A DNA stretch of 64,000 nt, from positions 496,001 through 560,000 of the forward strand of contig NZ_WJPP01000001.1 of assembly GCF_009649225.1 (NCBI RefSeq), given 5' to 3'. The notes under the pieces were generated by a model. It had not been told where the DNA came from and searched no databases. It was given only the letters and a program-made list of their open reading frames with translations. Below, piece by piece: positions 3,722 to 39,132 of the stretch; position 1 is the stretch's first letter; each line of letters starts with the position of its first letter. The translations under genes and the position numbers were made by a program. Origin of the DNA: Spiribacter salilacus. GTDB taxonomy: Bacteria; Pseudomonadota; Gammaproteobacteria; Nitrococcales; Nitrococcaceae.

Positions 3722-5246
3722 CGCAGCTGCGATCTATGGGCTCATTCGGAGCATCTAGAAAGTTAGCAACGACGCTGCGACCACAGAGTAAATTCAAATG
3801 CACATCATGCCCCATGCCTCGAAAGGCAACAAACTGACTATTCGAAAACTGTTCTGCAAGCCGCTGCGCAACAGCATGGGGGACTAACCCATCCGCATCA
3901 CCACTCATGATGAGTACTGGGTGGTCAGTTGCCACAGGCACTTCAAAAGACTCAGGTGCCTGCCCCACATCCCAAATGGGGCAGGTTAAACGATAACTTT
4001 GAAAACCATCTCCGGCCGGGTAGTAGAGCGGATTAGCCTCAACCACCGATTCAAGCGCCGCTGGGTCGTCAACAGGAAAGTCCTCACGACATTTGACTGA
4101 AAGATGCTGCCCAAGCTTCAACCCAGCAACCACATCATTGAGTGCCGCTGAAAAAATTGCCAATACCTCTTGATCATCTAGTGACAAGCGGCCTTGCACC
4201 ATATCGTGCAGTTCGGCGATATAACGCGGCAAATGGGTTGCAGTCTCGCTAAATGCCAGATGCCCAGATAGCGCCTCGATCACATCCGGCCAGCTCACCG
4301 CTTCGCGAACCGTCTCACCGGATTGGGGATCTTGAAATTGCAACAATACCGGCTCTTCTTGAAAATGCGCGGCCACCGCTTTGAATTTCTGCTCGAGGTC
4401 GCCATAGCGCTCCGTGCAGTTAGCATCCGCAGCACAGTCGGCGAAAAGCTGCTTAAAAAGCCGCGGACGCTCAGCAACCGCCTCGGCTGTTGCCTGTGAT
4501 CCGAGTGTTAGCGGAGAGTTAAGCACCATAGCGCGAACCCCAGCGGGGTCAACGCGCAGCAAATCTAACGCAAGCCGTCCCCCATAAGAGGTGCCCTGCA
4601 CATTCCAATGCCGCAACCCCAGCGCTTGGCGGATCGCACGCAGATCCAAAGCGGCCGCCCGCGTATCAAACAATGAGAGATCGACCCCTGCCTCTACCCA
4701 ATGGTCATGACAAGCGGTAAAACGTCTTCGATCTGCCTGATCTGCGTCAAATTCGGCCTCTTCGGTACTGGGGTCATTAAAGCGGTTTTGATCAAGCTCA
4801 GATGGCGCGATTTCCGGGCAATCAAGCGCCGGCTCAGATAGCCCCGTGCCCCGCTGATCAACCAAAATCATGCCGCGATTTCGCCTTAACTCAACCGCAC
4901 CCCCAAACCCAGCGATTGCCTCTGAGCCAGCTTGACCTGGGCCACCACTCAAATAAACAAAGGGATCGGGGTCGGGGCTTGAGGAGAGATTATCCAGAAT
5001 CGTTAGATGCACCCCAATCATTGCCGCGTCTGCCGGCAGACTTCCATCCGCCTGCACCAGCCCATGGTCCATTGGCAGCTCAGCCATTAAGCAAGTGGGT
5101 GTCTCGCCAAGCGGGGGTGTAAATGGACAGTCGATTTCTTCAAGCACAACCATTGGCACCGGGGGTAAGGCCTGTGCCAGTGAGATCGCACCGGGCATTA
5201 ATAGCATTGCACCAAAGGCTATCCACAACTGTTTTGTCGGCATCAC
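3693..5246 (-). CDS. Exported alpha/beta-hydrolase, S33 tripeptidyl-aminopeptidase-like
   Basis: The 517-residue protein begins with a signal peptide (IAFGAMLLMPGAISLAQALP). It has the alpha/beta-hydrolase order of S33 peptidases: the oxyanion motif YLSGGPGQAG, then DQRGTGLSEPALDCPE, the nucleophile elbow GTSYGGRLALDLL (serine near residue 220), the acid in MSGDADGLVPH and the histidine in FRGMGHDVHLN. Cysteines in the exported domain could pair. S33 enzymes of this type (SlpD/TAP-like) remove N-terminal residues from peptides. The start lies only 11 nt after the stop of the second ABC gene, so it is very likely co-transcribed with the exporter. An attractive inference is that it trims exported peptides in the periplasm; general peptide scavenging is the alternative. 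Confidence 0.85.
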   Translation of the reverse strand: MMPTKQLWIAFGAMLLMPGAISLAQALPPVPMVVLEEIDCPFTPPLGETPTCLMAELPMDHGLVQADGSLPADAAMIGVHLTILDNLSSSPDPDPFVYLSGGPGQAGSEAIAGFGGAVELRRNRGMILVDQRGTGLSEPALDCPEIAPSELDQNRFNDPSTEEAEFDADQADRRRFTACHDHWVEAGVDLSLFDTRAAALDLRAIRQALGLRHWNVQGTSYGGRLALDLLRVDPAGVRAMVLNSPLTLGSQATAEAVAERPRLFKQLFADCAADANCTERYGDLEQKFKAVAAHFQEEPVLLQFQDPQSGETVREAVSWPDVIEALSGHLAFSETATHLPRYIAELHDMVQGRLSLDDQEVLAIFSAALNDVVAGLKLGQHLSVKCREDFPVDDPAALESVVEANPLYYPAGDGFQSYRLTCPIWDVGQAPESFEVPVATDHPVLIMSGDADGLVPHAVAQRLAEQFSNSQFVAFRGMGHDVHLNLLCGRSVVANFLDAPNEPIDRSCVDDVGRRFE

Positions 5247-5257: not shown

Positions 5258-7435
5258 TTAGCTTATCTGTCGCTCTGCCATGTGCGTAAAAAGCCCGTTT
5301 TGCTTCATGAGTACGCTATAGCTGCCCTCTTCAACCAAACGCCCGTCAGACAGCACCAGAATCCGATCCGCCTCCCGCACCGTACTGAGCCGGTGCGCAA
5401 TGACGATTCGGGTGCAGTCTAATGCCGCAAGGCTCTCGCTCACCCGCGCCTGAGTCGCGTTATCCAGCGCACTCGTGGCCTCATCCAGAATTAACAATCG
5501 CGGCTGATCAACAATGGCTCGGGCAATTAATAAGCGCTGCCGTTGCCCGCCCGATAAAGTATCGCCGGCATCCCCCACCAGCGTATGCATTCCCATGGGC
5601 ATGCGGGCAATATCCGCATCCAACCCAGCGCGGCGGGCAGCCTCCTCTGCATCGGCCAGGGTTCGCCCAGTATTGCCAATGATGTTGCGCAAAATATCGC
5701 CACTCATCACGTGCTGTTGCTGAAGCACAACGCCTAATTGCCGGCGCAGCGCGCTCACATCCAAGCCAGCCAGATCCTGTCCATCAAAATACACCCCGCC
5801 GCTGTCAGGCTGCTCAAAACCCAACAGTAAGCGCAGTAGGGTCGACTTACCTCCGCCTGAGGCGCCCACGATGGCAACAAACTCCCCCGGGCTTACGCGA
5901 AAGGAAATTCCATCTAAAATTGGCGGCCCGTCCCGCTCATAACGAAAACGCAGCTCGCTGACCTCAACATCGCCAGTAAGCTCGCCCGGATCCGCCTTAT
6001 TGAAATCAACCTCCGGCTCAGCCTCAAGGATTGGACGGGCGCGCTCATAGAGGGGGACGATATTCAGCACGCCGATCAGCGTTTGGCTCAAACCAAGCAG
6101 CCCGCCTAAGAAAACCCCAAACGCCGCGTTAAAGGCCAAAAAGCCACCAGTCGTGATCGCATCATCACCTAACAAAAACGCCAAACTGGCGAATAACGCC
6201 ATGCTCCCCAGCACCGGATAGACCGCCTGAATGGTTTCTGTGATGTTTTGGATGCGCCCAGCGGCAATCACGTGATGTTGCTGCCGAGCAAAGACCTGTG
6301 ACCAGCACAAAAAAGCACGGAGCTCAGCATTAGCGGCCTGCAGTTTGCCAATACCGCTGAGCAACTGAAGTAAGATCCCGTCAATCCGCCCGGCAATACC
6401 CGCCAACTCACGCTCATGACGAAGCGCTGCTAGTGTAAAAACCGCACTAGTTACCAATAAAACCAGCGCCAGCATCAGGCCAACCAGAGCCAGCATTGGG
6501 CTATAGAGAAACATCAAGCCCAAACTCAGCAACGCGAAGACCGATGTCAGCACACTACTCAGGGTGGTGCCTGAGAGTGCCTCGCGAATCTGTGATATCC
6601 CGTTGGCCCGGCCAGCAAGATCACCCGCGGTGTAGTCTCGGAAAAAGGTGGCCGGCAGGCGCAGCATCCGATCCCACACCGCTGACTGTAACTGCGCATC
6701 GGCCTGACCTTCCAAGCGCAACTGGGCAAAGCGTTGCGTTAACTGAAACATCGCGGAAGCAATGGCAATAGCAATCAACCCTAAAGAAAGCTGCAACAGC
6801 TCGTAGTGACTTGCGCTCGGAATTACCGTATCCACTAAATACCCAGTGGCCACCGGGACCACCAGCCCAAGCAGGCCCACGGCCAGTGCCAGCATACCAA
6901 TCAGCGTGAGGTCGAGTTGGCGCCCATCTAAGGCAAAACCCAAAATCGCAAACATCCCCCCAAGGCGCGCCTGCAACGGGCGATAGATCTGCACCGCACC
7001 GCTTTGCAAAGCCGCCCGATCAGCCGCGGTGAGCGCCCTTGGTGCTTGGTTGGGTGCGTGAATGCGCCACGCCGCACCGGGGCGATGCGCCGGCAGCAAC
7101 GCCACGGGCTGCGCCTCAGGGCCATAAAATGCCAATAAAGGCCCAGCAGCCTGTGCAGGCCAATCCCCCACCAGCGCCACGCGGCGATACCGGCAGCCGG
7201 CGGCCCGTAGGATCACCCGCACACTCGCATTATCGGGCAAGGTTGGCACGCGCAAGGTAAAGCCTAACGCTTCGGCGACAAGGCTGATCGCGGCCTGCAG
7301 AGGATTATGACTGGCCACACTTGCCTGCCCAGGCAGCGGACGGACTAGCCCCGCCAACTCAGCCAAATGATCTGCCATGCGCGCCTTTTCTCGCGCTTGG
7401 CGACGTGCCAGCCGATCGTGCGCCGCGTCGGTCAT
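5258..7435 (-). CDS. NHLM bacteriocin-system ABC transporter, permease/ATPase without peptidase
   Basis: The protein has 725 residues. The first 150 or so form a soluble N-terminal region in the position of a peptidase domain but with no recognisable Cys-His pair. A six-helix ABC membrane domain follows (LTLIGMLALAVGLLGLVVPV and others), then a full ATPase: Walker A GASGGGKST, signature LSGGQRQRL, Walker B LLILDEATSALD and the H-loop IVIAHRLSTV. This matches the second ATP-binding subunit of Nif11/nitrile-hydratase-leader (NHLM) export systems, which pairs with the peptidase-bearing ABC protein. It overlaps that gene by 4 nt (ATGA), as expected for a heterodimer made in equal amounts. It sits in the inner membrane. 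Confidence in the family is high from the context of leader peptides and partners. Confidence 0.9.
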   Translation of the reverse strand: MTDAAHDRLARRQAREKARMADHLAELAGLVRPLPGQASVASHNPLQAAISLVAEALGFTLRVPTLPDNASVRVILRAAGCRYRRVALVGDWPAQAAGPLLAFYGPEAQPVALLPAHRPGAAWRIHAPNQAPRALTAADRAALQSGAVQIYRPLQARLGGMFAILGFALDGRQLDLTLIGMLALAVGLLGLVVPVATGYLVDTVIPSASHYELLQLSLGLIAIAIASAMFQLTQRFAQLRLEGQADAQLQSAVWDRMLRLPATFFRDYTAGDLAGRANGISQIREALSGTTLSSVLTSVFALLSLGLMFLYSPMLALVGLMLALVLLVTSAVFTLAALRHERELAGIAGRIDGILLQLLSGIGKLQAANAELRAFLCWSQVFARQQHHVIAAGRIQNITETIQAVYPVLGSMALFASLAFLLGDDAITTGGFLAFNAAFGVFLGGLLGLSQTLIGVLNIVPLYERARPILEAEPEVDFNKADPGELTGDVEVSELRFRYERDGPPILDGISFRVSPGEFVAIVGASGGGKSTLLRLLLGFEQPDSGGVYFDGQDLAGLDVSALRRQLGVVLQQQHVMSGDILRNIIGNTGRTLADAEEAARRAGLDADIARMPMGMHTLVGDAGDTLSGGQRQRLLIARAIVDQPRLLILDEATSALDNATQARVSESLAALDCTRIVIAHRLSTVREADRILVLSDGRLVEEGSYSVLMKQNGLFTHMAERQIS

Positions 7436-9600
7436 GCCATCTCTCCGACCAATGCGGCATAGGCTTCGTTCATTGCCATTAACTCGGCATGCGTGCCCCG
7501 CTCCACCACGCGCCCTTCATCGAGCACAATAATCTCATCACAATCCCGAACCGTGCTGAGCCGATGGGCCACGATCAGCGCGGCACAACCGCGGCAGCGC
7601 AAATTTGATTCGACGGTGGCTTCGCTGACCGGGTCAAGCGCACTGGTGGCCTCATCAAGTACCAGCAGACTCGGGTCAGTCACCAGCGCACGGGCAATCT
7701 CAAGCCGCTGCAATTGCCCACCGCTAAAATTGCTCCCGCCCTCGCGCAGGGGGCTCTCATAGCCATGCGCCCGGCCAGCGATTTCTTCATGAATCAGCGC
7801 ATCATGGGCGGCATTAATCATGCGCTCCTCAGGCAGCGTGTCATCCCACAGCGTTAAGTTATCGCGCACACTGCCATCAAACACCGCCACGCTCTGATCA
7901 ACCATCGCTAGCGAGTTGGCTAATACGGCACGGGGCCAAAAATCTCGGGGCTTACCATCAAGCAGAACCTCGCCCGACCAGGGCGTGTACAGCCCCATCA
8001 CCAACCGCGCGATCGTAGATTTACCGCTGCCCGAACCACCCACTAGGGCCACGCGCTGGCCGGGCGCAAGCGTTAAATTAAAGTTTTCAATCAAGGGCGC
8101 TTGGTGGGGGCTATAACCAAAGGTTAGATCCTTGAGCTCAAGCTCACCTGTCAAGCGCACAGGCCCTGTATCGATTGCTTCGTCAGTCTCTCGTGTCGCG
8201 GGGTAATCAAACACATCATCCAAACGGCGCATATCGCCACCAAGCTTTTGCAAACGCTCAGCACTGTCCACCAACTCATTAATTGGCTGAATAAAAGCGG
8301 CTGCAAGTGCCTGAAAAGCCACCAATCCGCCAATAGTTAATACGCCTTCAATCACCCGCAACCCACCTACCGACAGGATCAGCGCTGCATTCAGGGCCAT
8401 TAAAAATGGCGGCACAGATAACAAAACCACCCCGGACGCGCCCAGACTTTGCCGGGCCGCCAATGTGCGTGCATGCTGACCTGCCCAGCGCGCAAAAAAG
8501 TCATCCTCCGCGCCGGTTGCTTTTAGGGATTCGATGGCCAGCAAGCCGCTCATCGAAGTCCCAATGAGCTTTCCTTCATCCATGAGCAAACGCTGATTGC
8601 CATCTTTACGCCGGCGCGCAACCGCTCGCAGCGCCACCAAGTTAAAAGCGCCAATGGCAACGGCCACTAACGTCAGCAATGGATCGAAAAGCATCATCAA
8701 CGCGGTGTAGAACACCACGGTAATAATCGCCAGCACGCTCTTAGCAAGGTCATTTGCCAGCGCATCGGCCACCGCATCGTTAATGGTGACGCGATTACCC
8801 ATCTCGCCCGCGGAACGTTGGTTATGAAATGCCAGCGGCAAATGCAGCACATGCCAGAGAAAACGCGCCGAGTGGCTAATGGATAGCTTGCTGCGCAGGC
8901 GCAATAAAACTTGTAACTGCAACCAGTGCAGCAGCGCCATCACGACCAGCGTACCAGCCATAAAAACCAGCAGCGGCATCACCCAATCGTCAAGCCCCCC
9001 AATGAGCACCTCATCCACAAACACCTTACTGAAGACCGGCACGAGTAATCCGGGAATGACCAAGGCCAAGCCAGCCAGCACCAAAAAGCCCACGCTGCCC
9101 CAGTTCCCGGGCAGGCGGTCAAGTATGGCCTCGCGGGCGCCGCGAACACGCCCACCCCGTTCAAAACCCTCATCAGGCGCCATCTCAAGGGCAACACCAG
9201 TAAAGCCAGCATCGAATTCGGCTTGCGTGATGACGCGTGGACCGGTTGCCGGGTCATTTAAATAAACCCGATCTCCACGAAACCCTTCCACCACTAAAAA
9301 ATGATTAAATTCCCAAAAAACAATACAGGGCCTACCGTAGTCACGAACCGCCTCGGGCTGCCAGCGCCTGCCCTGCGCTTGCAAACCAAAAGCGCGCGCA
9401 GCGCGCACAACGCTACTCGCCTTGCTACCGTCACGGGAAACACCACAGTCAATCCGCAAACGCTCAAGCGGCTCAAAGCGCCCGTAATACGCCAGTATGA
9501 TCCCTAAAGCCGCCGCCCCGCATTCAACCGCTTCCATCTGCAAAAGCGTGGGCGTGCGCACCCGCCAATTGCGTGGCCGGCCACTCAAAGCCCCAACCAC
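7432..9600 (-). CDS. NHLM bacteriocin-system ABC transporter with C39 leader peptidase
   Basis: The protein has 722 residues. The N-terminal C39 peptidase domain has its catalytic cysteine in QMEAVECGAAAL (around residue 27) and its histidine in FNHFLVVEGF, followed by the aspartate of YLNDPATGPR. This domain cuts after a double glycine in leader peptides. Membrane helices follow (VGFLVLAGLALVIPGLLVPV and later pairs), then an ATPase with Walker A GGSGSGKST, signature FSGGQLQRLE and Walker B LLVLDEATSALD. It should cleave and export the products of the precursor genes at 12.1-14.0 kb, all of which carry GG sites. It overlaps the HlyD-like gene by 16 nt and the partner ABC gene by 4 nt. Confidence 0.93.
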   Translation of the reverse strand: MVGALSGRPRNWRVRTPTLLQMEAVECGAAALGIILAYYGRFEPLERLRIDCGVSRDGSKASSVVRAARAFGLQAQGRRWQPEAVRDYGRPCIVFWEFNHFLVVEGFRGDRVYLNDPATGPRVITQAEFDAGFTGVALEMAPDEGFERGGRVRGAREAILDRLPGNWGSVGFLVLAGLALVIPGLLVPVFSKVFVDEVLIGGLDDWVMPLLVFMAGTLVVMALLHWLQLQVLLRLRSKLSISHSARFLWHVLHLPLAFHNQRSAGEMGNRVTINDAVADALANDLAKSVLAIITVVFYTALMMLFDPLLTLVAVAIGAFNLVALRAVARRRKDGNQRLLMDEGKLIGTSMSGLLAIESLKATGAEDDFFARWAGQHARTLAARQSLGASGVVLLSVPPFLMALNAALILSVGGLRVIEGVLTIGGLVAFQALAAAFIQPINELVDSAERLQKLGGDMRRLDDVFDYPATRETDEAIDTGPVRLTGELELKDLTFGYSPHQAPLIENFNLTLAPGQRVALVGGSGSGKSTIARLVMGLYTPWSGEVLLDGKPRDFWPRAVLANSLAMVDQSVAVFDGSVRDNLTLWDDTLPEERMINAAHDALIHEEIAGRAHGYESPLREGGSNFSGGQLQRLEIARALVTDPSLLVLDEATSALDPVSEATVESNLRCRGCAALIVAHRLSTVRDCDEIIVLDEGRVVERGTHAELMAMNEAYAALVGEMA

Positions 9601-10805
9601 CGACGTAGTGTGGGAATCACCAATGTGATCGGGCGTCGCTCGGCCACCGTCACACGGGTTTCAGCCAAACCACCCGTGCGAATTTGCATCTCTGGGCCCT
9701 GGCCAGAAGTCCAGCGATACCCACTGGGGGTGTGAGCATCGCGAATCAGATTGACGCTTGCCTCAAAAACTGCGCCCTCCCGCATCAACTGACGCACCAA
9801 TGACTCATTATCGAGCAAACGCATCATTCCATTAAAGGTGGCAGGAAATTCCGACACCCAAGTAATCTTACCCACCAAATAGCCATGCTCTTCGCGCTCG
9901 ACAATGGTGGGCGATACCAATGCCGTCATCCCGGGATTGAGTTGCTTGCCATCTTTCGCAGGCAAAAACATGGCAACCTCAAGTGCATTGATGTCACGCC
10001 CGCTGCGCTCCAGACTAAGAATCTCCGCGCCCGCACTTACTGAAGCGCCAACGTTATACTTAAGCTCTACTACCCGGCCCGCTTGGGGGGCGAGCACCTC
10101 CACCGCCACGCGATACCGCGCGGCAATCCCCTCTAGCTCAGCGCGGGCCTGATCCAACTCAAGCTGTGCCGTCTCAATCCGGTTTGCTCGCTCCTGTGCT
10201 TGCTGCGCATTGTTCAGGGCCAGTTCTTTAAGATCGGCTTTGGTATTGGCGATAGCCTCTGCGGTTTCAATGCGATTGCGCCGCGGAATCAACCCCTTGG
10301 CTTCAAGATCACTTTGCATCGCATAGCGTTCTTCATTAATTGCCAGCAAATCTTCTAGGTTTGTCTGCCTCTGCTCGCTAAACGCAGCCTGTAAATCGGC
10401 CTGCCGCGCTTGATGACGTCGCAACTGCTCCAGCCTGTCAGTTAACGCATCAACACGCGTTTGCTGTACACGCAACTCGGCCCGCAACTCAGGCTGAGCA
10501 AGCCGCGCAATCACCTGCCCTTGCTCCACTTCATCACCAGCCGACAACTCTAATTCGCTAATCCGGCCCGCAGTAGTGACCGTGACCGCCTCTACCCCGC
10601 CGGTGCGAATAAAGACGCCTTCGCCGTCCAGCCGCGTAGGTACAACCCCGTAAAACCCCCACAGCACCACGCTGGTCAGCAGCAATAAGACTGCAGTGAG
10701 CGCCACCCAACCGCGGCGCGAGGTGGCCACCATCATCGCGTCTAACTGCTCAGGCGCAGAAAGCTGGTCAAGCGCTTGTTGGCGAAAGATCCCCGATTTA
10801 GGCAT
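9585..10805 (-). CDS. NHLM-system HlyD-like secretion adaptor
   Basis: The 406-residue protein has a single membrane anchor near residues 31-52 (GWVALTAVLLLLTSVVLWGF) after a short cytoplasmic tail. Then comes a biotinyl-lipoyl half-domain (GRISELELSAGDEVEQGQVI), a long heptad-rich coiled-coil stretch, the second half-domain (VEVLAPQAGRVVELKYNVGASV) and a beta-barrel part. This is the membrane-fusion (HlyD/adaptor) layout, and the neighbourhood marks it as the NHLM subtype. It would link the ABC exporter to an outer-membrane channel; no TolC-like gene is present in the window, so a general TolC is presumably used. An 18-nt gap follows the regulator gene upstream. Confidence 0.9.
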   Translation of the reverse strand: MPKSGIFRQQALDQLSAPEQLDAMMVATSRRGWVALTAVLLLLTSVVLWGFYGVVPTRLDGEGVFIRTGGVEAVTVTTAGRISELELSAGDEVEQGQVIARLAQPELRAELRVQQTRVDALTDRLEQLRRHQARQADLQAAFSEQRQTNLEDLLAINEERYAMQSDLEAKGLIPRRNRIETAEAIANTKADLKELALNNAQQAQERANRIETAQLELDQARAELEGIAARYRVAVEVLAPQAGRVVELKYNVGASVSAGAEILSLERSGRDINALEVAMFLPAKDGKQLNPGMTALVSPTIVEREEHGYLVGKITWVSEFPATFNGMMRLLDNESLVRQLMREGAVFEASVNLIRDAHTPSGYRWTSGQGPEMQIRTGGLAETRVTVAERRPITLVIPTLRRWLGL

Positions 10806-10823: not shown

Positions 10824-11894
10824 TCAGGTCGAAAGGTGGTGCAGCCAGCGCTCATAGCGCCGATCAACGCGATCCTGACCAATTTGCGCGCCCACAACCC
10901 CCAACCCCTCGCGACGTGCGGTGCTTGGTGATACCCCATAACGGCGCCGAAAAGCCCGACTAAAGGCTGCATCGCTGGCGTAACCGCTGACCAAAGCAAT
11001 GTCTAACAGCGTGCGGTGCGCCTCATTTGGGTTTGTTAACGCGAGCATGGCCAAACGCAGACGACGCTCCCGAATATAACTTCCCACCCCACCCAAACGC
11101 TCAAAAAGCTGATAAAGCTTTGAGCGTGACATACCCACCTGCCCAGCAATCCAATCGGCGCCAAGCTGTGGGTTGGCAAGATGCGCTTCGATAAATCGGC
11201 GAACAGCGGCTAGCCGCACCCGCGCGATGGCATCAGGCTCGGTCGATGACTCCTGATTGACGGCATTGTTCAAACAAGCACTGACCATACCCACCGTTAC
11301 AGGCACCAGCTCACCAACCTGCTGGAAAGACAGCACATCGGCAAAGCGCTTGAGCATACACATATGCTCATGGAGCATTTGCACCATTGGCTGACCAGGC
11401 GCCAACATCCGCATATGTTGCTTCTCGGGTTGTTTAAGATGCGGTTCAAGCAGATCGCGAGGAATGATGAGTGAGAGATTAGAAAAATCAGAGGTTTGAC
11501 TGACGGCCGAGCGAGTCAAGTCAAAAACAACCAGTCCACCCCGTGGGAGGTCAAAACGACCCTGAGCGGTTTGCCACGTCATCTGTCCCCGCTCGAAGAG
11601 TTGAATCATAAAATGATCCATCCCATCACGAGCCATCACAGATTCATTACGCTGCCAGTCATGCGCTGTGGTGGCTGCGCGCGCCAGCATCAGCGGCCCA
11701 AGCATGTGCGCATCAACCTGCGCAAAAAAGTCTTTTTCACGCCGTTCGCGCGCTGCATTAACCTCGAAAATACAGGAGATGCTCTCGTGCCAAACATCAT
11801 AGCGCTCTTTATTAGGCACCTCATCCACTTGGAAGCGCGTATGCGGCAGTGCCTGGGCCTTGGCGTTATTTTGAGTAGTACGGTTATGTTCCAT
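10824..11894 (-). CDS. AraC-family regulator of the peptide-export locus
   Basis: The protein has 356 residues. The start is set at the ATG at 11894 because a strong ribosome site (GGGAGGGCGGG) lies directly before it; an upstream frame to 11969 adds 25 residues with no such signal. The N-terminal two thirds is an AraC_binding_2-like sensor domain (YDVWHESISCIFEV, MIQLFERGQMTWQTAQGRF). The C-terminal hundred residues carry two helix-turn-helix motifs (LGADWIAGQVGMSRSKLYQLF and LLDIALVSGYASDAAFSRAF) ending in GVSPSTARREG. It is the first gene of the minus-strand export operon and divergent from the precursor genes, so it probably controls both. The inducer is unknown. Confidence 0.88.
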   Translation of the reverse strand: MEHNRTTQNNAKAQALPHTRFQVDEVPNKERYDVWHESISCIFEVNAARERREKDFFAQVDAHMLGPLMLARAATTAHDWQRNESVMARDGMDHFMIQLFERGQMTWQTAQGRFDLPRGGLVVFDLTRSAVSQTSDFSNLSLIIPRDLLEPHLKQPEKQHMRMLAPGQPMVQMLHEHMCMLKRFADVLSFQQVGELVPVTVGMVSACLNNAVNQESSTEPDAIARVRLAAVRRFIEAHLANPQLGADWIAGQVGMSRSKLYQLFERLGGVGSYIRERRLRLAMLALTNPNEAHRTLLDIALVSGYASDAAFSRAFRRRYGVSPSTARREGLGVVGAQIGQDRVDRRYERWLHHLST

Positions 11895-12080
11895 CCCGCC
11901 CTCCCTACTGACGACAGCTAACTTGACGCTAGCCCCTAATTTATGGGAATGCAAACCACCAAATCCCATCTGAGCTAATCAAAAACGTCCTACCAACAAT
12001 GCAGGACAAACGATCAAATGTGCGGACAACTCAGCGGTAACACTGAGCTGAAACTGAACAAGATCGACAAGGAGCCAACA
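11895..12080. promoter_or_regulatory. Divergent intergenic control region between regulator and precursor genes
   Basis: This 186-bp region must hold the promoters for the export operon (leftward) and the precursor genes (rightward). Two short inverted repeats are visible: GTCCT...AGGAC around 11987-12007 and CTCAG-N8-CTGAG around 12030-12047. A clear AAGGAG lies before the first precursor ATG. No convincing sigma-70 boxes could be assigned by eye. AraC-type sites are usually direct rather than inverted, so the roles of these repeats are open. Confidence 0.4.
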
Positions 12081-12416
12081 ATGTCTGAACAAGGCGTTGA
12101 GACCTTTCTCAACCAACTCACTGATCAACCGGCACTGCGCGAGCAACTCTCCAACGTCCTGAAGAACGCCGAAGATAGCGCCATCGGCGAAACGGTTGTC
12201 GCGTTTGCCAACGAGGCCGGGTTTGATATCAGTGCTGAGGACCTTGAATGGCTCAATACCGCGTTGTCAGAAGATGCGGTATCGGATGAAGCGCTGGATG
12301 AGGTGAGTGGGGGCTTTACGGGGCCCTTTAACTACTTTTCAGGCGCCACGCTCCGTACAGGGGTCACCAACGAAAAAGACTACTTGAACCCCTTTAAGAA
12401 AGAGTTTTGGCAATAG
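12081..12416 (+). CDS. Nif11-like leader precursor peptide 1 (NPFKKEFW core)
   Basis: The protein has 111 residues. The start is the ATG at 12081 after AAGGAGCCAACA. Residues 1-78 form a Nif11-like leader: VETFLNQLTD..., AFANEAGFDISAEDLEWLN, then an acidic run DEALDEVSGG with the cleavage GG at 77-78. The 33-residue core begins FTGPFNYFSGATLRTG and ends YLNPFKKEFWQ. It has no cysteine and few Ser/Thr. The C39-ABC exporter encoded divergently is the obvious processing partner. The core ending is shared with precursors 3 and 5 but spelled with different codons here, which argues for selection on the peptide. Activity (bacteriocin, signal or other) is not known. Confidence 0.85.
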   Translation: MSEQGVETFLNQLTDQPALREQLSNVLKNAEDSAIGETVVAFANEAGFDISAEDLEWLNTALSEDAVSDEALDEVSGGFTGPFNYFSGATLRTGVTNEKDYLNPFKKEFWQ

Positions 12417-12433
12417 CCAACAAGGAGACCATC

Positions 12434-12991
12434 ATGTCCGACACAACACTTCCCGAGCATCTGGAAAAGCTAATCGATGCTTTACAAACCAATCCCGCCC
12501 TTGGCGAAGGCGTGATTGCCGCGGTGGGTGATCATGAAGGCACCGCTGCCGCTGAAGCTGCCGCAAGCTATTACAACAAAGCCGGCTATCCCGTAACGGC
12601 TGAGGAACTCATCGCACTGGAGATCGCCCGCAAGAACGCTGTGGGCGATGCCCTGAGTGATGCCGAGCTCGATTTAGTGGCAGGTGGCGGGAGCAACTTT
12701 TTCAGTAATTTGCCACGTAATTTATGGGCAACAGGAAAATTGGCCACCTCACTTGTTTCAGATCGGCGGCTAAAGGTATCCATTACCGAAGCGGGCCGTG
12801 ATGCGCGCACTGGCCTGATGCAGTACGAGTTTGCTTATCGCAGCCATCCCTCCCGCCGCTTTCGCGGTGTGATGGCCGACGAAGTGGCCGAGGTGATGCC
12901 TGAAGCCGTGATGGTGATGCCATCTGGATACCATGCTGTGGACTACGGCCGCCTGGGCCTGGAGATGACTGAGGTAGATCACCATGTCTAA
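12434..12991 (+). CDS. Nif11-like leader fused to a Peptidase_S74-like auto-chaperone domain
   Basis: The protein has 185 residues. The start is at 12434 after CAAGGAGACC. Residues 1-85 are a leader of a second type (LPEHLEKLIDALQTNPALGEG, NKAGYPVTAEELIALEIA, then DAELDLVAGGG with the GG at 84-86). Residues 109-180 match the tail-fibre intramolecular chaperone/auto-protease family S74: SDRRLK, then GLMQYEFAYR, FRGVMADEVAEVMPEAV and YHAVDYGRLGLE. Ser109 and Lys114 have the five-residue spacing of the known S74 Ser-Lys self-cleavage dyad. Only about 23 residues lie between the GG and Ser109. It sits between two ordinary precursors and overlaps the next by 8 nt. I know of no described case of this fusion; phage origin of the C-terminal part is likely. 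Confidence 0.85.
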   Translation: MSDTTLPEHLEKLIDALQTNPALGEGVIAAVGDHEGTAAAEAAASYYNKAGYPVTAEELIALEIARKNAVGDALSDAELDLVAGGGSNFFSNLPRNLWATGKLATSLVSDRRLKVSITEAGRDARTGLMQYEFAYRSHPSRRFRGVMADEVAEVMPEAVMVMPSGYHAVDYGRLGLEMTEVDHHV

Positions 12992-13328
12992 GCAAGACGT
13001 CGAAAATTTCCTTAAGCAACTCACTGATGACATCACACTGCGCGAGCAGCTCTCAGCCACACTGGCCAATGTCGAAGACAGCGCCACCGGTGAGACGGTT
13101 ATCGCCTTTGCCACTGAGGCGGGGTTTGATATCAGTGCAGAGGATCTTGAATGGCTCAACAACGCGCTGTCAGAAGATGCCTTGCCGGATGAAGCTCTGG
13201 ATGAGGTGAGTGGCGGCGTGATGGGCGCGATTTCCTACCTCGGCGACAAACTCCATCCCTACCGGACAGAGCCTCCGGCCAAATCAAAAAACGCACTAAA
13301 CCCTTTTAAAAAGGATTTTTGGTGGTAA
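12984..13328 (+). CDS. Nif11-like leader precursor peptide 3 (NPFKKDFW core)
   Basis: The protein has 114 residues. The start at 12984 lies inside the end of the S74-fusion gene (8-nt overlap), with GAGGTAG upstream as ribosome site. The leader (residues 1-78) is almost the same as in precursors 1 and 5 and ends DEALDEVSGG. The 36-residue core starts VMGAISYLGDKLHPY, has a proline/lysine-rich middle, and ends ALNPFKKDFWW. No cysteine is present. The leader DNA is nearly identical to that of the gene at 13676 while the core DNA is not, until the last 11 codons, which converge again. This indicates a recent duplication with divergence of the middle of the core. Confidence 0.85.
   Translation: MSKQDVENFLKQLTDDITLREQLSATLANVEDSATGETVIAFATEAGFDISAEDLEWLNNALSEDALPDEALDEVSGGVMGAISYLGDKLHPYRTEPPAKSKNALNPFKKDFWW
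13298..13318. repeat. Near-palindrome coding for the NPFKKDF motif (precursor 3)
   Basis: Ten bases on each side of a central A pair with one mismatch (arms AAACCCTTTT and AAAAGGATTT), followed by more T. It lies entirely in codons for the conserved peptide ending. A perfect version occurs at 13984-14004. Confidence 0.85.
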
Positions 13329-13350
13329 TCAAAGCTAAGAGGTGCTCGCA

Positions 13351-13641
13351 ATGACAGAGAAAAATATCGAAACCTTTTTAAATACCCTCGCCGATGACTC
13401 GGCGATGCAAGCGCGTTTATCCGCAACGATCAACGAAACCATCATCTCTTTTGCTGCAGATGCCGGGTTTGAATTCACGGCTGACGACCTTCTCGCACTG
13501 AACGACAAGCTATCTGATGAAGCGCTAGATAGCGTGACGGGTGGATCTTTCTTAACCGATGCGGGGCGTTCGCTGAAAGATTGGTTTCTGCCACACCGGA
13601 TCTCGAAGGACGAGAAAAAGAACCCATGGAACCATCCTTAA
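13351..13641 (+). CDS. Nif11-like leader precursor peptide 4 (divergent core)
   Basis: The protein has 96 residues. The start is set at the ATG at 13351 preceded by AAGAGGTGCTCGCA. The leader is shorter (65 residues): IETFLNTLADD, ADAGFEFTADDLLALNDKL, then DEALDSVTGG. The GFEFTADDL segment is the closest in this set to the classic Nif11 helix. The 31-residue core starts SFLTDAGRSLKDWF and ends KKNPWNHP, a diverged version of the shared NPF..FW ending. It again lacks cysteine. It is less similar to its neighbours than they are to one another and is probably an older member of the family. Export by the C39-ABC pair is inferred from the GG. Confidence 0.8.
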   Translation: MTEKNIETFLNTLADDSAMQARLSATINETIISFAADAGFEFTADDLLALNDKLSDEALDSVTGGSFLTDAGRSLKDWFLPHRISKDEKKNPWNHP

Positions 13642-13675
13642 ATTCAACCACCCGACTGCAAACAAGGGGAACATC

Positions 13676-14023
13676 ATGTCCGAACAAACCGTTAAAACCT
13701 TTCTGAGTCAACTCAGCAATGACCCCACACTGCGCGAGCAGCTCTCAGCCACACTGGCCAATGTCGAAGACAGCGCCACCTCTGAGACGGTTATCGCCTT
13801 TGCCACTGAGGCTGGGTTTGATATCAGTGCGGAGGATCTTGAATGGCTCAACAACGCGCTGTCAGACGATGCGTTATCGGATGAAGCGCTGGATGAGGTG
13901 AGTGGCGGCTGGCTCGGCGCCACCGCTTACGCATTACAAAAAATAGAGCCCCAGCTTAACTACGGCAAAAATAAAAACGCACTAAATCCTTTTAAAAAGG
14001 ATTTTTGGAAACCAATTGGTTAA
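13676..14023 (+). CDS. Nif11-like leader precursor peptide 5 (NPFKKDFW core)
   Basis: The protein has 115 residues. The start is at 13676 after AAGGGGAACATC. The leader (1-78) ends DEALDEVSGG. The 37-residue core begins WLGATAYALQKIEPQ and ends ALNPFKKDFW followed by four extra residues KPIG. The core has no cysteine, serine or threonine cluster of lanthipeptide type. Leader DNA matches precursor 3 nearly base for base over about 170 nt. The coding DNA of the ending contains a perfect 10-bp inverted repeat. This is the last intact member of the set; only a broken copy follows. Confidence 0.85.
   Translation: MSEQTVKTFLSQLSNDPTLREQLSATLANVEDSATSETVIAFATEAGFDISAEDLEWLNNALSDDALSDEALDEVSGGWLGATAYALQKIEPQLNYGKNKNALNPFKKDFWKPIG
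13984..14004. repeat. Perfect palindrome coding for the NPFKKDF motif (precursor 5)
   Basis: Arms AAATCCTTTT (13984-13993) and AAAAGGATTT (13995-14004) are exact reverse complements around one A, followed by TT. It resembles a weak intrinsic terminator but lies in frame inside the gene end, about 19 nt before the stop codon. Confidence 0.9.
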
Positions 14024-14041
14024 TCACAAAACGAAAACATC

Positions 14042-14143
14042 ATGCCCGACACAACACTTTCCGAGCATCTGGAAAAGCTAATTGATGCTTTACAAAACGA
14101 TCCCGCCCTTGGCGAAGGCGTGATTGCCACTGCGGTTACGTGA
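14042..14143 (+). pseudogene. Truncated second copy of the leader-S74 precursor gene
   Basis: From the ATG at 14042 the frame reads MPDTTLSEHLEKLIDALQND and on to GEGVIA. It matches the start of the S74-fusion gene at 12434 almost base for base for 84 nt. It then switches to foreign sequence at 14126 and stops at 14141 (TAVT-stop). The remaining leader, the GG site and the S74 domain are missing, so it cannot yield a product like its parent. The break coincides with a 27-bp stretch also present in the VOC dioxygenase gene. Confidence 0.85.
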
Positions 14144-15317: not shown

Positions 15318-15578
15318 TCAGCGCCGATAGACCTGGCCCCTATGGCCAACTTTAACTACAGTAACAATCAAAGCGCCATCAGCAATTTCATAGATAATCC
15401 GATAAACGCCTTGCCGGATCCGATACCGCTCCTCACCAGTCAGCTTCTGACTCCCTGACGGTCGGGGCTCATTGCTTAGCGCATAAATACGCTCAAGAAT
15501 TTTTGCAACGTCGGGATTTGGGATTCGCCGCAGATCCTTTGCGACTGAACGCTTGAAAAGCAGCTCATATCTTTCCAT
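15318..15578 (-). CDS. RelE/ParE-family toxin
   Basis: The 86-residue protein begins MERYELLFKRSVAKDLRRI and ends with the basic RelE-like strand VKVGHRGQVYRR. It contains the family core YRIRQGVYRIIYEI. Those arginines and the terminal YRR are the residues that attack ribosome-bound mRNA in RelE-type toxins. It overlaps the upstream antitoxin gene by 14 nt, the normal antitoxin-toxin order. Target (mRNA versus gyrase, as in ParE) cannot be decided, but the HRGQVY ending favours RelE. Confidence 0.88.
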   Translation of the reverse strand: MERYELLFKRSVAKDLRRIPNPDVAKILERIYALSNEPRPSGSQKLTGEERYRIRQGVYRIIYEIADGALIVTVVKVGHRGQVYRR

Positions 15579-15798
15579 GCGCCCTCAGATCGTTCAACAA
15601 CGCTTCGTAGGAGATGGTCGGTTCTGCAACTCGATCCTCAAAAGCGGCGAGGTCTTCCTGATCTTCCGCCAAAGACAAACGCACGGCCTCGTTAACAATC
15701 TCCGAGACCGTTTGATTCGTGTGAGCCGCCTTGATGCGCAGGGCAGCATGCAACTGTGGATCGAAGTAAATGGTTGAGCGCCGCGCGGAGTCCGTCAT
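15565..15798 (-). CDS. Ribbon-helix-helix (CopG-like) antitoxin
   Basis: The 77-residue protein carries an N-terminal ribbon-helix-helix (RSTIYFDPQLHAALRIKAAHT, then TVSEIVNEAVRLSL) and an acidic C-terminal half (EDQEDLAAFEDR) that would wrap the toxin. It is the first gene of the pair and would repress its own promoter. GGAGGTGAGTC precedes the start codon. An imperfect inverted repeat at 15837-15851 upstream is a candidate operator. It is divergent from the HigBA-like pair, with about 100 bp between the two start codons. Confidence 0.87.
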   Translation of the reverse strand: MTDSARRSTIYFDPQLHAALRIKAAHTNQTVSEIVNEAVRLSLAEDQEDLAAFEDRVAEPTISYEALLNDLRAHGKI

Positions 15799-15836
15799 GA
15801 CTCACCTCCTGATTAGCCTTAATACTCAGTTTAGCG

Positions 15837-15851
15837 GTTAAACGTTTTAAC
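15837..15851. promoter_or_regulatory. Inverted repeat, candidate operator of the RHH/RelE pair
   Basis: The 15-bp sequence GTTAAACGTTTTAAC is an inverted repeat with one mismatch, 39 bp before the antitoxin start on the minus strand. Position and form suit a ribbon-helix-helix repressor site. Confidence 0.45.
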
Positions 15852-15864
15852 GTCAGTTTGGACC

Positions 15865-15892
15865 TTGCAAATATACGCAAATTGCGTACCAT
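15865..15892 (+). promoter_or_regulatory. Promoter with embedded palindrome before the HigBA-like pair
   Basis: TTGCAA (15865-15870) and TACCAT (15887-15892), 16 bp apart, form a plausible sigma-70 promoter. Between and overlapping them lies the perfect 15-bp palindrome TACGCAAATTGCGTA (15874-15888), a likely operator for the HigA-like antitoxin. The transcript would start at or just before the toxin ATG at 15900, so it may be nearly leaderless. Confidence 0.5.
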
Positions 15893-15899
15893 TCATCGC

Positions 15900-16244
15900 A
15901 TGAAGTTGGTTTTCCTAGAGACACCCTCTTTCACTCGGCACCTCAGGGACTACCTGACCGATGATAGTTACCGCGAATTGCAGCACAAACTGATGGACAA
16001 CCCTGAAATGGGTGTTGTGATACCGGGCACTGGTGGGTTTCGCAAGGTCCGCTGGGAAGACGCCCGTCGCGGAAAAGGTAAACGAAGTGGACTGAGGATT
16101 ATCTACTACTATCTCACGAGTGATCGCCAGATTTGGTTCTTCGCAATTTATAACAAGGACGAGACCCTAGATTTGACGGTAGAGGAAAAGAAGGTGCTCA
16201 AGAAGACTATCCATGCCGAAATCGAAGCCAGGAGACGAGACTAA
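15900..16244 (+). CDS. HigB-like RelE-superfamily toxin
   Basis: The protein has 114 residues from the ATG at 15900 (MKLVFLETPSFTRHL); an upstream start at 15858 would lie across the promoter. It has the HigB2/GraT-like pattern: LTDDSYRELQHKLMDNPEMG, GGFRKVRWEDARRGKGKRSGLRIIYYY, and IWFFAIYNKDETLDLT. These toxins cleave mRNA on the ribosome. The gene precedes its antitoxin, the reverse order typical of hig loci, and shares one nucleotide with it. A possible weak point is the lack of a strong ribosome site, which fits a nearly leaderless transcript. Confidence 0.87.
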   Translation: MKLVFLETPSFTRHLRDYLTDDSYRELQHKLMDNPEMGVVIPGTGGFRKVRWEDARRGKGKRSGLRIIYYYLTSDRQIWFFAIYNKDETLDLTVEEKKVLKKTIHAEIEARRRD

Positions 16245-16576
16245 TGACGCAAAAACGCAAATTGTTCGATGAACTCATGGAAGGCGTCAACGCAATGCAG
16301 CAGCATCGTGAAGGCAAAATCACTCTGCGCTCGCATGAGGTAGAAGACCTTCTCCCGCTCGAGGTAGACGCGAATCTTATTCGTGACACACGTGAGCGTT
16401 TGAACGTCTCCCGCGCTGTATTCGCCCGACGTCTGCGGGTATCGACGCGCACACTGGAAAACTGGGAACAAGGTCGGGCGCGCCCCAATGCTCAAGCAGC
16501 GGCTCTAATTTTGATGGTCAGGACATTTCCTGACACGCTGGAGAAACTGAGCGGCCTAGATAGCCATGCGGCTTAG
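16244..16576 (+). CDS. HigA-like XRE antitoxin
   Basis: The 110-residue protein has an N-terminal toxin-binding arm (KRKLFDELMEGVNAMQQHREGK) and a C-terminal XRE helix-turn-helix (IRDTRERLNVSRAVFARRLRV, STRTLENWEQGRARPNAQA). This arrangement is that of HigA antitoxins. The start ATG overlaps the toxin stop by one base, and a GGAG in the toxin gene end serves as ribosome site. It should neutralise the upstream toxin and repress the promoter palindrome at 15874-15888. Confidence 0.88.
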   Translation: MTQKRKLFDELMEGVNAMQQHREGKITLRSHEVEDLLPLEVDANLIRDTRERLNVSRAVFARRLRVSTRTLENWEQGRARPNAQAAALILMVRTFPDTLEKLSGLDSHAA

Positions 16577-20396: not shown

Positions 20397-20717
20397 ATGC
20401 AACATCTCACTGACCAACTCAAGCAATTTCGCGACGAGCGTGATTGGGCACAGTTTCATAACCCCAAAGACCTTGCACTGGCACTGAGCATTGAGGCCAA
20501 TGAGCTGCTCGAGGCCTATTTGTGGAAATCATCCGAGCAAGCGGACCCTGCCAAAGTTAAAGAGGAGCTTGCGGATGTTTTTGCGTTTGCCCTTTTACTG
20601 GCAGATCACTATGACTTTGATGTCAGCGAAATCGTTTTGGATAAGATGGCTCAAAACGCCGCCAAATACCCAGTGGCAAAAGCCAAGGGCACGGCAAAAA
20701 AATACACTGAGCTATGA
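20397..20717 (+). CDS. MazG-like nucleotide pyrophosphohydrolase
   Basis: The protein has 106 residues. The start is set at the ATG at 20397, six bases after GGACGGAG; a frame open from 20304 would run through the promoter. It contains the MazG helices: RDWAQFHNPKDLALALSIEANEL, LLEAYLWKSS, and KEELADVFAFALLLADHYDFD. The EANELLE and EELAD acid clusters bind magnesium and nucleotide. Single-domain MazG proteins hydrolyse NTPs/dNTPs to monophosphates and are common in defence loci. It overlaps the next gene by 4 nt (ATGA), so expression is coupled. Its substrate is unknown. Confidence 0.88.
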   Translation: MQHLTDQLKQFRDERDWAQFHNPKDLALALSIEANELLEAYLWKSSEQADPAKVKEELADVFAFALLLADHYDFDVSEIVLDKMAQNAAKYPVAKAKGTAKKYTEL

Positions 20718-22915
20718 GCCAATCGCAGACGCCGCAAGTTACCGTTCAGCAATATACCTTTGGCAAACAGGTGCTCGTGGAAATTGATGCGCACCCGCAT
20801 GCGTCTAATAACTGGCCGGTGGTTTACATCTTAAGCGATAAAAAAACCAAATCCGCTTATGTTGGCGAAACCACCAATGCCAAATCACGCCTTAGCACCC
20901 ACCTAAAAGATAAAAAGAAACAAAAGCTCACCACTGCCGCTTTGGTCAGTAGCACCAAATTTAATAAAAGCGCCGCGCTGGACATTGAAGCCTCATTGAT
21001 TCGCTACTTGGCTGGCGATGGAAATTTAAAGCCAATTAACAGCAACTTAGGCGGTGCAATTGACCATAACTATTACCAAAAAAATGAGCTATACCGTGAA
21101 ATCTTTCAGGAAACTTGGGATAACCTTCGCCGCATAGGGCTTGTGCAGCGTTCGTTGGAGTCCATCGATAATTCTGATGTCTTTAAATACTCGCCTTACA
21201 AAACGCTCTCGGCCGATCAGCGCGAGAGCTTAATCGGCATCCTAACCGCCCTATTAGATGACCGCGTTAAAACACTGCTTGTTGAAGGCGGCGCTGGCAC
21301 TGGCAAATCCGTATTGGCGATTTTTCTATTCAAACTGTTGCATAGCGACCTCGATGATATTCAGCTGCGCGAATTTTCGGATGATGGAGTTAAGCTGCGA
21401 GAGCTCGTCACGCGTTTTAAAGAGCGGTTTCCAGAGCCGCGCATGGCACTAGTTGTGCCGATGTCATCATTTCGCAGCACCCTAAAACGAGCATTCAGCC
21501 AGATCGCAGGCTTGAGCGCCAAAATGGTGATAGGGCCAGCCGAATTGGCGCGACAGCATTATGACGTTGTATTAGTGGACGAGGCCCATCGCCTGCGCCA
21601 ACGCAAGAACCTTGGATCGTATTTCGGCCGCTTTGACGCGGTTTGTAAGGAACTCGGCATGGATGCCGGAACCGCTTCAGAAGTTGACTGGGTGTTGGCA
21701 CAATCCACCAAGTCTGTTTTCTTTTACGACGAAAACCAATCTATCAAACCCTCGGATGCAGACTCGGGCGTTTTCAAGCAACTCAAAAAGCAACCCACCA
21801 CGCAACAACAAATGTTGTTGTCCCAATTCCGCGTAAACGCTGGGAACTCATACTCTCAATTTATCAGCGACTTACTGCGTGTGGCTTTGGGCGAAACTGA
21901 GGTTTTTCGTTCCAAGCAATACGAGCTGAAGGTTTTTGATCGAATCGATGACCTAATCGCGACCATCGAGGATCGCAACGAAAAACAGGGCTTATCACGT
22001 TTAGTGGCTGGGTTTTCCTGGCCTTGGGTCTCTAAAAATAACCCCCAACTCTTTGACATCCAGATCGAAAATACTGCCCTGCAATGGAACCGCACCAACA
22101 ATGACTGGATCAACTCCGACAACGCTGTCAAAGAAGTAGGCTGCATTCATACTACCCAGGGCTACGACCTCAACTACGCCGGTGTCATCTTTGGCCATGA
22201 AATCAAGTTTGACCCCGATCGCCAAGAAATCATCATTGACGTTGATCGATACTTCGATAAAAACGGCAAAACCGCGATCGATGATCCTGCGCAACTCAAG
22301 CAGTACATCTTAAACATCTACCAAACCATCTTGATGCGCGGCATTCGCGGCACTTTTATCTACGCGTGCGATCCGGCCCTGCGTGCTTATCTTAAGCAGC
22401 ACATTCCAACCCACCAGCAAGTGCAGCCGCCAGCTGCTGACAATGTGGTTGAGCTTAAACCCTTTGTTAATGCCGTGCCGCTGTATAACTTAGACGTGGC
22501 TGCAGGCGCATTCAGTGACCTGCAAATGGCGGAAGTGGCCGACTGGGTGGCCGTACCCCCTACCCAGCCGATCGATGAAACCTACTTTGCCTGCCGGGTG
22601 ATTGGCGAGTCGATGAACCGCATCATTCCCAACGGCGCAACCTGCCTCTTCCGCAAAGACCCCGGCGGCAGCCGTAACGGCAAAATCGTACTGGTGGAAT
22701 TAACCAACCTACGCGACCAAGAAAGCGGCTATGGCTACACCATAAAAGAATACCAAAGCATCAAAACCGAAGATGACGATGGGTTTCACCATCAAATCAT
22801 TCGGCTTAAGCCCCGCTCTTCCGACCCATCCATAGCAGCCATCGAACTCACGGCTCAGGATGACGCCGAATTCCACGTGGTGGGCGTGTTTGAGGGAGTT
22901 TTGGATGACGGGTGA
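20714..22915 (+). CDS. GIY-YIG / DUF2075 helicase / S24 peptidase fusion protein
   Basis: The 733-residue protein has three parts. Residues 36-100 form a GIY-YIG nuclease-like domain (VVYILSDKKTKSAYVGET). Residues about 170-570 form a DUF2075 P-loop helicase-like domain with Walker A GGAGTGKS near 192 and DEAH-like VVLVDEAHRLRQ, plus IHTTQGYDLNYAGVIF near the C-terminal motif. Residues about 610-733 resemble the LexA/UmuD S24 peptidase: the serine in VIGESMNRIIPNGA and the lysine in NGKIVLVEL. No DNA-binding HTH is present. The arrangement suggests a DNA-acting effector with a built-in sensor or self-cleaving switch. It is the middle gene of a tightly coupled three-gene operon. Confidence 0.85.
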   Translation: MSQSQTPQVTVQQYTFGKQVLVEIDAHPHASNNWPVVYILSDKKTKSAYVGETTNAKSRLSTHLKDKKKQKLTTAALVSSTKFNKSAALDIEASLIRYLAGDGNLKPINSNLGGAIDHNYYQKNELYREIFQETWDNLRRIGLVQRSLESIDNSDVFKYSPYKTLSADQRESLIGILTALLDDRVKTLLVEGGAGTGKSVLAIFLFKLLHSDLDDIQLREFSDDGVKLRELVTRFKERFPEPRMALVVPMSSFRSTLKRAFSQIAGLSAKMVIGPAELARQHYDVVLVDEAHRLRQRKNLGSYFGRFDAVCKELGMDAGTASEVDWVLAQSTKSVFFYDENQSIKPSDADSGVFKQLKKQPTTQQQMLLSQFRVNAGNSYSQFISDLLRVALGETEVFRSKQYELKVFDRIDDLIATIEDRNEKQGLSRLVAGFSWPWVSKNNPQLFDIQIENTALQWNRTNNDWINSDNAVKEVGCIHTTQGYDLNYAGVIFGHEIKFDPDRQEIIIDVDRYFDKNGKTAIDDPAQLKQYILNIYQTILMRGIRGTFIYACDPALRAYLKQHIPTHQQVQPPAADNVVELKPFVNAVPLYNLDVAAGAFSDLQMAEVADWVAVPPTQPIDETYFACRVIGESMNRIIPNGATCLFRKDPGGSRNGKIVLVELTNLRDQESGYGYTIKEYQSIKTEDDDGFHHQIIRLKPRSSDPSIAAIELTAQDDAEFHVVGVFEGVLDDG

Positions 22916-31801: not shown

Positions 31802-32027
31802 AACCTGCCCTATATTCGGACGAGGGGTGGCACTGTCCGCTCCGAAATGAAGTATCTACCTGCGATCTTGCAGCGTTTCGCCAATCTAAGCCTTGACGGC
31901 AGTAACAGGCACTCAAAAAAATCACACTGGCATACTGGGAAAGGACCAGCTCCGATCCCATTTCCTCGGATCGGATGCGAGCAGTGCCCCGCCCCCCTAG
32001 CTCGCAGGAAACACGGTCGATTCTCAC
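31794..32027 (-). pseudogene. Decayed Vsr-like mismatch endonuclease gene
   Basis: A 77-codon frame starts with GTG at 32027, overlapping the dcm stop by 4 nt (GTGA), and ends 8 nt inside the MORC-like gene. Near its start ARIRSEEMGSELVL resembles the N-terminal SRIRSKD..PEL of Vsr. A little later YASVIFLSACYC resembles the Vsr strand AVIFVHGCFWH. The segment between them, which in Vsr holds the catalytic aspartate (LPGKPDxVF), is missing. MORC-type cassettes often place vsr directly after the cytosine methyltransferase, so position supports the reading. It is probably non-functional. Confidence 0.45.
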
Positions 32028-38891: not shown

Positions 38892-38934
38892 ACAACATGA
38901 AATGGTGTGCATCTTGCAGCACTAAATCAACACG

Positions 38935-39132
38935 GTCAGAGCGTATGGACTAACCCACGAGTTCATCACGCCCTATACGCCGGAGCGGAATGGGCTAATG
39001 GAGCGCTTCTTCCGATCCCTAAAAGAGGGATGCATCTGGCAGCACCAGTTCGAGCCGCTAGCGCATGCGCGGCAGGTGATCGTGCAATGGATCCGGTTTT
39101 ACAATAACGAACGGCCGCACCAGTTATCCGCT
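38935..39132 (+). mobile_element. IS3-family transposase C-terminal fragment
   Basis: The frame reads AYGLTHEFITPYTPERNG, then LMERFFRSLKEGCIWQ and ends with FYNNERPHQLS. This is the DDE C-terminus of an IS3-family integrase-like transposase (the catalytic glutamate lies in LMERFFRSLKE). The remainder is missing and the frame runs on into unrelated sequence to 39234. It is a different group from the other IS3 elements here. Confidence 0.8.

Follow-up and report, generated by a model that had tools for sequence, protein, structure and literature searches.

The question raised by this locus is why a short gene, lying among the precursors of exported peptides, should join a double-glycine leader to a Peptidase_S74 domain of the phage type, and what such a domain would do at the end of a peptide precursor. 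The maturation of precursors of this kind is known from the leader side. In the window, that is the whole stretch of 64,000 nucleotides of Spiribacter salilacus DNA analysed here, the gene occupies positions 12434-12991 of the forward strand, is preceded by an AAGGAG ribosome site at positions 12422-12427 and encodes a protein of 185 residues. The fusion of leader and S74 domain, to which a first-pass annotation had drawn attention, is confirmed.

A divergent Nif11-like leader with a predicted C39 cleavage site

Residues 1-85 of the protein (12434-12688, forward strand) form a double-glycine leader that resembles Nif11 in the TIGR03798 alignment (residues 8-85) and in the helices of the AlphaFold model. 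The Nif11 models align end to end with residues 8-85, yet they score below their curated cut-offs, with 18.2 bits against 23.8 for PF07862 and 23.5 bits against 32.3 for TIGR03798. Given this alignment and the presence of four adjoining paralogues above the cut-off, the leader probably works like Nif11 and represents a divergent case.

At its end the leader carries three glycines, residues 84-86. The consensus for C39 peptidases comprises L(-12), E(-8), L(-7), V(-4) and GG (PMC6363468), and the leader matches every one of these positions (L74, E78, L79, V82 and G84-G85). Since the consensus fits solely a cut after G85, the cargo would begin at G86, and cleavage after Gly85 by the C39 peptidase is a well-supported prediction. 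Between this cut and the S74 domain lies a segment of 23 residues, GSNFFSNLPRNLWATGKLATSLV (residues 86-108; 12689-12757, forward strand), which is modelled with low confidence and whose GC content is 42%, against 57% and 59% in its flanks. The double-glycine site and the segment proposed at the outset, running from GSNFFSNLPR to ATSLV, agree with the position given by the consensus.

A precursor operon beside a complete export cassette

Five precursor genes lie in a row at 12081-14023 on the forward strand, with the S74 gene in second place; the other four score clearly above the Nif11 cut-offs. Specifically, these are paralogue 1 (12081-12416; PF07862 41.3 bits, TIGR03798 45.0 bits), whose VSGG precedes a cargo of about 33 residues, paralogue 2 (12984-13328; PF07862 43.2 bits), paralogue 3 (13351-13641; TIGR03798 50.6 bits) and paralogue 4 (13676-14023; TIGR03798 56.5 bits). 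The TAA stop of the S74 gene overlaps the ATG of paralogue 2, so that the two genes are probably coupled, which argues for a real gene within an operon. Further downstream, at 14030-14128 on the same strand, the start of the S74 gene is repeated in tandem as a truncated copy, which retains the ribosome site and the first 30 codons before the frame is lost; no S74 domain was found downstream of it, and its presence points to a precursor array undergoing reshuffling. A C-terminal motif, LNPFKK(D/E)FW, is common to three of the remaining four precursors and is absent from the S74 precursor.

Divergent from this operon, on the reverse strand, lie an AraC-family regulator, recognised by a profile match (10824-11969), and a complete NHLM cassette. 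The latter consists of an HlyD-type adaptor (9585-10805; TIGR03794, 321.7 bits, cut-off 156.2), an exporter with a C39 peptidase (7432-9600; TIGR03796, 1025 bits, cut-off 853) and a second ABC transporter (5258-7435; TIGR03797, 857 bits, cut-off 709). All three models are far above their cut-offs, in line with the C39 exporter that had been postulated for this locus, and the Peptidase_C39 domain of the exporter (E 7.9e-29) keeps its catalytic Cys (VECGAA). Among the genes adjoining the cluster none was recognised as coding for a modifying enzyme, and the cargoes may therefore be unmodified. Directly behind the transporter genes, on the same strand, an alpha/beta-hydrolase with a TAP-like domain (3693-5246, reverse strand) is possibly a co-transcribed peptidase.

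The remainder of the window holds several other loci. A ParE toxin with an RHH antitoxin, followed by a RelE-like toxin with an HTH antitoxin, occupies positions 15318-16576, and a single protein encoded at 20714-22915 on the forward strand combines GIY-YIG, Schlafen group 3 helicase and S24 peptidase domains. On the reverse strand, neighbouring genes at 24648-31801 match MzaB, MzaC, MzaD and MzaE and probably constitute an Mza defence system, while matches to DrmMII, DrmD/BrxH, DrmB and DrmA, together with helicases, form a DISARM-like set at 32024-51165 in which apparent transposase fragments are interspersed.

A short S74 domain that keeps its catalytic dyad

The S74 domain spans residues 109-185 (with the stop codon, positions 12758-12991 of the forward strand). 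The PF13884 profile matches residues 109-159 with 27.7 bits (E 3.5e-6, cut-off 22), and PHROG virion/ejection families match residues 105-174, with a best E value of 6.8e-14 for phrog_6121. A Pfam score above the cut-off and the PHROG matches together place the S74 identity, as first recognised by eye, well beyond chance.

The predicted structure is compatible with the same family. In the AlphaFold model of the 185-residue protein the S74 part is modelled confidently, with block means of pLDDT between 92 and 97 for residues 111-180, the leader is helical and residues 92-104 fall under 50. When the model was passed to a structural aligner, the intramolecular chaperone auto-processing (ICA) domain of MyRF (7dc3) ranked fourth, with a Z value of 3.8 and 2.3 A over 54 residues; for the model of a relative from a lasso precursor (see below), the top three entries were all S74 domains, namely 7dc3 (Z 4.4), 3gud (2.7) and 3gw6 (2.6). 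Such low Z values count solely because S74 entries lead the list of the lasso model and because the sequence families agree. Kinase entries in the aligner lists were taken to reflect a common arrangement. Among viral models, BFVD returned 21 matches at E <= 1e-3, several of them named ICA; a Foldseek search of the PDB gave no significant match, and when PDB sequences were searched with the S74 profile, MyRF and the long tail fibre of a phage appeared only at E of about 0.01.

Ser109 (codon 12758-12760) and Lys114 (codon 12773-12775) are five residues apart, the spacing of S911/K916 in endoNF and of S587/K592 in MyRF, as the initial reading of the dyad had it. All 75 distinct profile matches have both the Ser and the Lys of SDxxxK, while the residues in between vary, a count that is strong and yet not wholly unbiased, because the profile itself rewards the Ser and Lys positions and a few fibre-type matches are included. 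What the window domain does not share with the fibre-type S74 domains is the tail. These continue for 24-73 residues past a conserved V-x-Y, with coiled-coil sequence, whereas short S74 domains continue for 3-20 residues in phage-type proteins and for 8-12 in lasso precursors (the values of 175 for L106 and 14 for L081 derive from a misplaced search pattern). The protein of the window ends 14 residues after Y171, with no C-terminal alpha4 coiled coil, and upstream of its S74 domain the low-confidence segment of 23 residues stands in place of a beta-helical stalk.

Distribution and probable phage origin of the domain

The S74 domain of the window is the sole one in a genome of 2.24 Mb, and a prophage beside the gene was on this ground rejected as its source. 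No close relatives of the whole protein were found in a collection of genome contigs, in 193 related genomes or, at E 0.01, in plasmids or phages, and the fusion of Nif11 with S74 was not found in the 193 relatives, in 369 genomes of the class or in 398 genomes of the phylum. Two sister species carry Nif11 genes, both without S74. Nor does the domain occur at the remaining Nif11 loci in this genome, an observation that bears on the idea that the S74 domain acts in trans, namely as a processing enzyme or chaperone for its four companion precursors after it has been cut off or exported. The position of the gene and its overlap with the next one would suit such a role, but known S74 cutting is confined to the domain's own chain, the paralogues have no SDxxxK and the other Nif11 loci do without the domain, so that we consider trans action very improbable.

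Searches with the S74 part alone yield phage contigs and prophage proteins. The closest relative is a 339-residue Allochromatium prophage protein (L033), 53% identical over residues 96-181, and the closest relatives in general are small phage virion/ejection-like proteins rather than tail fibres. The domain was probably taken from a phage protein of the virion/ejection type.

Several further kinds of exported protein were also seen to end in a short S74 domain. In alphaproteobacteria, recurring small proteins consist of a signal peptide, a membrane helix and a short S74 domain (L036, L049 and L089). In another protein (L039) a signal peptide and a Thr-rich linker precede the domain, and a lipoprotein (L046) ends in it. 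A lipoprotein-like protein of a Rhizobium plasmid (L124, 4671-5309) lies between a gene for a caspase-family protein and one for an isoprenylcysteine methyltransferase, and S74 matches of its kind occur in 65 Rhizobium plasmid records. Finally, in one alphaproteobacterial genus, DUF3300-like proteins (so named by eye; L054-L060) continue through a Gly-rich linker into a terminal short S74 domain, whose tail reaches up to 28 residues and does not appear by eye to be a coiled coil; L053 is a smaller secreted relative of these.

Predicted lasso precursors with an S74 domain

A profile of the short S74 domains, run against the 398 genomes of the phylum, detected two small proteins in which a lasso-type leader (YVRPxLxxxGSVRNLTG) is followed by a terminal S74 domain, both of sphingomonad type, a family label taken from similar proteins on named contigs. 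A wider search brought the number of such precursors to ten, of which nine come from a single genus and the tenth from a second one (L103-L112, in G534, G1367, G1353, G1354, G1334, G1345, G997, G1333, G1347 and G494), and also yielded nine sister precursors that share this leader but have no S74 domain. As lasso precursors we took proteins with a leader of the form YxxPxLxxxG....LTG and a core with Gly at position 1 and Asp or Glu at positions 7-9. In all ten, the Y, P, L, G, T and G of the leader are invariant, and the cores start with GS and have Asp at position 8, as an eight-residue ring needs. The lasso-leader model scores 17.5 on the precursor L072, just below its cut-off of 19, and the lasso-cyclase model 328.6 against a cut-off of 525. 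We therefore regard L103-L112 as predicted lasso precursors; no description of precursors of this type was found in the literature searched.

The position of the S74 domain in these proteins is informative. Counted from G1 up to the last position ahead of the S74 serine, the cores measure 16, 16, 16, 16, 17, 15, 23, 18, 18 and 25 residues (median 16.5), and those of the nine sisters without S74 end at 16, 17, 17, 21, 16, 16, 26, 16 and 21 (median 17), with no significant difference in length between the two sets (Mann-Whitney p 0.77). The domain follows the cores with no consistent linker and, since the sisters end naturally at 16-26 residues, its serine sits where the peptide should end. That the sisters might be S74 genes truncated by nonsense mutations was rejected, as no S74 remnant lies past the stop in any of three frames; stops inside three tblastn matches (L113, L114 and L117) were put down to chance extensions.

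Nine of the ten genes directly follow a gene for an asparagine-synthase-type cyclase in conserved cyclase/PqqD/kinase clusters. Downstream come a methyltransferase (in six), an HprK-like kinase, a PqqD protein and a nucleotidyltransferase, an order identical in the clusters without S74. The PqqD protein would be the B1 component; as for B2, four of these clusters have a Transglut_core3 protein next to the cyclase, and the other five have no B2 peptidase gene nearby. The tenth gene (L112, in G494) is an orphan, with no cluster within the stretches read. Among the five closest precursors conservation is highest in the S74 domain (identity 0.80, dN 0.14, dS 1.3), in comparison with the core (0.61, 0.32 and 1.7) and the leader (0.67, 0.26 and 1.7), figures whose dN/dS ratios are rough because dS is near saturation.

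In a tree of 48 S74 domains, in which few columns were available and most deep forks remain open, the ten lasso S74 domains form one clade (94/91) and the domain of the window lies nearest the phage-type L068, L033 and L048. This separation points to two independent fusions, and a separate origin of the two is likely, though not proven. The lasso precursors also bear on a further explanation for the gene of the window, namely that the end of a phage gene fell by recent accident behind a duplicated Nif11 leader and has as yet no selected use. Its occurrence in a single genome, the sub-threshold Nif11 scores of its leader and the truncated copy, a sign of an array in flux, are what such an accident would leave behind. 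Nevertheless, the reading frame is unbroken through all 185 codons, catalytic residues, GVMADEV core, predicted fold and the perfect C39 motif have all been retained, and the stop overlaps the start of the next gene; moreover, the lasso precursors show that fusions of this kind can persist under purifying selection. For these reasons an accidental fusion appears unlikely.

Two cuts or an uncut module

The best reading of the S74 precursor, to which we assign a little less than an even chance, is that a peptide of 23 residues is released by two cuts. The Nif11-like leader would bring the precursor to the NHLM exporter, whose C39 peptidase would cut after Gly85. The short S74 domain would act as a follower: once folded, its Ser109 and Lys114 would cut their own chain between Val108 and Ser109, either before export, in which case leader and cargo would be exported, or after it. 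Both cuts together would free the peptide. In the predicted lasso precursors of another bacterial family the same device, apparently acquired independently, starts where the core should end.

The mechanism has precedents. The S587A and K592A substitutions each abolish cutting in MyRF, a reaction that depends on trimers held together by the coiled coil of the C-terminal alpha4 helix (PMC8326128); likewise, an S74 MAT fibre of Bdellovibrio cuts itself at the Ser of SDxxxK (PMC10769870). What stands against self-cutting is that the short S74 class ends before alpha4, and that the protein of the window is also without a stalk. In addition, short S74 domains with an intact dyad end secreted proteins, lipoproteins and DUF3300-like proteins, in which a peptide-releasing role is not obvious. 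Short S74 domains that keep the dyad in the absence of alpha4 may trimerise otherwise, may cut as monomers or may keep the dyad for folding, and autoproteolysis before Ser109 in the window protein is accordingly judged about evenly balanced.

The main rival to the release of a 23-residue peptide is that the S74 domain stays attached. The C39 peptidase would remove the leader and the 100 residues 86-185 would be exported whole, a course of events that we regard as doubtful but well worth considering. As part of this explanation, and with the same reservation, the uncut domain would help in folding, oligomerisation or binding once it is outside the cell, or would shield the cargo; a folding or trimerisation module had been the alternative offered by the first-pass annotation. 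The recurrence of short S74 domains at the ends of the exported proteins described above is equally compatible with a general exported module and with a cutting one. The missing coiled coil, needed for cutting in MyRF, speaks for an uncut module as well, and the hydrophobic stretch that precedes the S74 domain is found in phage relatives too, for example ADMWGTIVGAGLGAATK in L033. On the other hand, a module of this sort hardly explains the invariance of both catalytic residues, nor the occurrence of S74 after lasso cores of natural length with no consistent linker.

Taken with the lasso precursors, the release of the peptide by two cuts leads to a broader proposal, which we advance tentatively and hold to be somewhat less than evenly likely: a self-cutting short S74 follower may have been attached repeatedly and independently to Nif11/C39-exported and to lasso precursors, as a phage-derived autoprotease that sets the C-terminus. 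Against the explanation as a whole, the fusion of the window is known from one genome and the lasso parallel is itself predicted.

Relation to known systems and significance

The ICA domains of endoNF, of the phage T5 L-shaped fibre, of GA-1 gp12 and of human MyRF share with the window S74 domain the SDxxxK motif with Ser and Lys five apart, a common GV(M/I)A(D/Q)EV core and probably the predicted fold. The domain of the window differs in being short, in having neither C-terminal coiled coil nor beta-helical stalk, and in its place behind a 23-residue segment and an export leader. The phage virion/ejection-type proteins (phrog_6121 and phrog_4287) are its closest sequence relatives and have the same short ending, but there the domain ends phage proteins of 200-430 residues instead of an export precursor. 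With the Nif11/NHLP (N11P) precursors (Haft 2010, PMC2887384) the locus has the leader, the GG site, the three-gene exporter and paralogous precursors in common; an S74 or folded C-terminal domain, present in the window, is undescribed there. The MAT fibres of Bdellovibrio are likewise a bacterial, non-phage use of S74 (PMC10769870), but they are long adhesins that form trimers and possess a signal peptide as well as a beta-helical stalk, unlike the protein of the window. The lasso precursors L103-L112 come closest in design, being short leader-core precursors with a short S74 domain directly after the core; they differ in their lasso-type leader, their cyclase cluster and their separate S74 clade, where the window has a Nif11 leader and a C39 exporter.

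Each of the parts is thus known, and the combination of leader and S74 was not found described in the open-access literature, the part searched, where no relevant paper joins lasso or Nif11 with S74; this agrees with the first-pass annotation, which knew of no account of such a fusion. The more important lead is the repeatedly acquired S74 follower for peptide precursors. If true, an autoprotease contained in the precursor itself and fixing the opposite end of the peptide would be a new maturation step, and the S74 follower would be useful for peptides with exact C-termini. It would need a mode of cutting other than that of the known trimerising coiled coil, and it raises the question whether S74 domains cut without the known trimer. 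Lastly, it would suggest a function for small bacterial proteins that are at present annotated as 'tail fiber domain-containing'.
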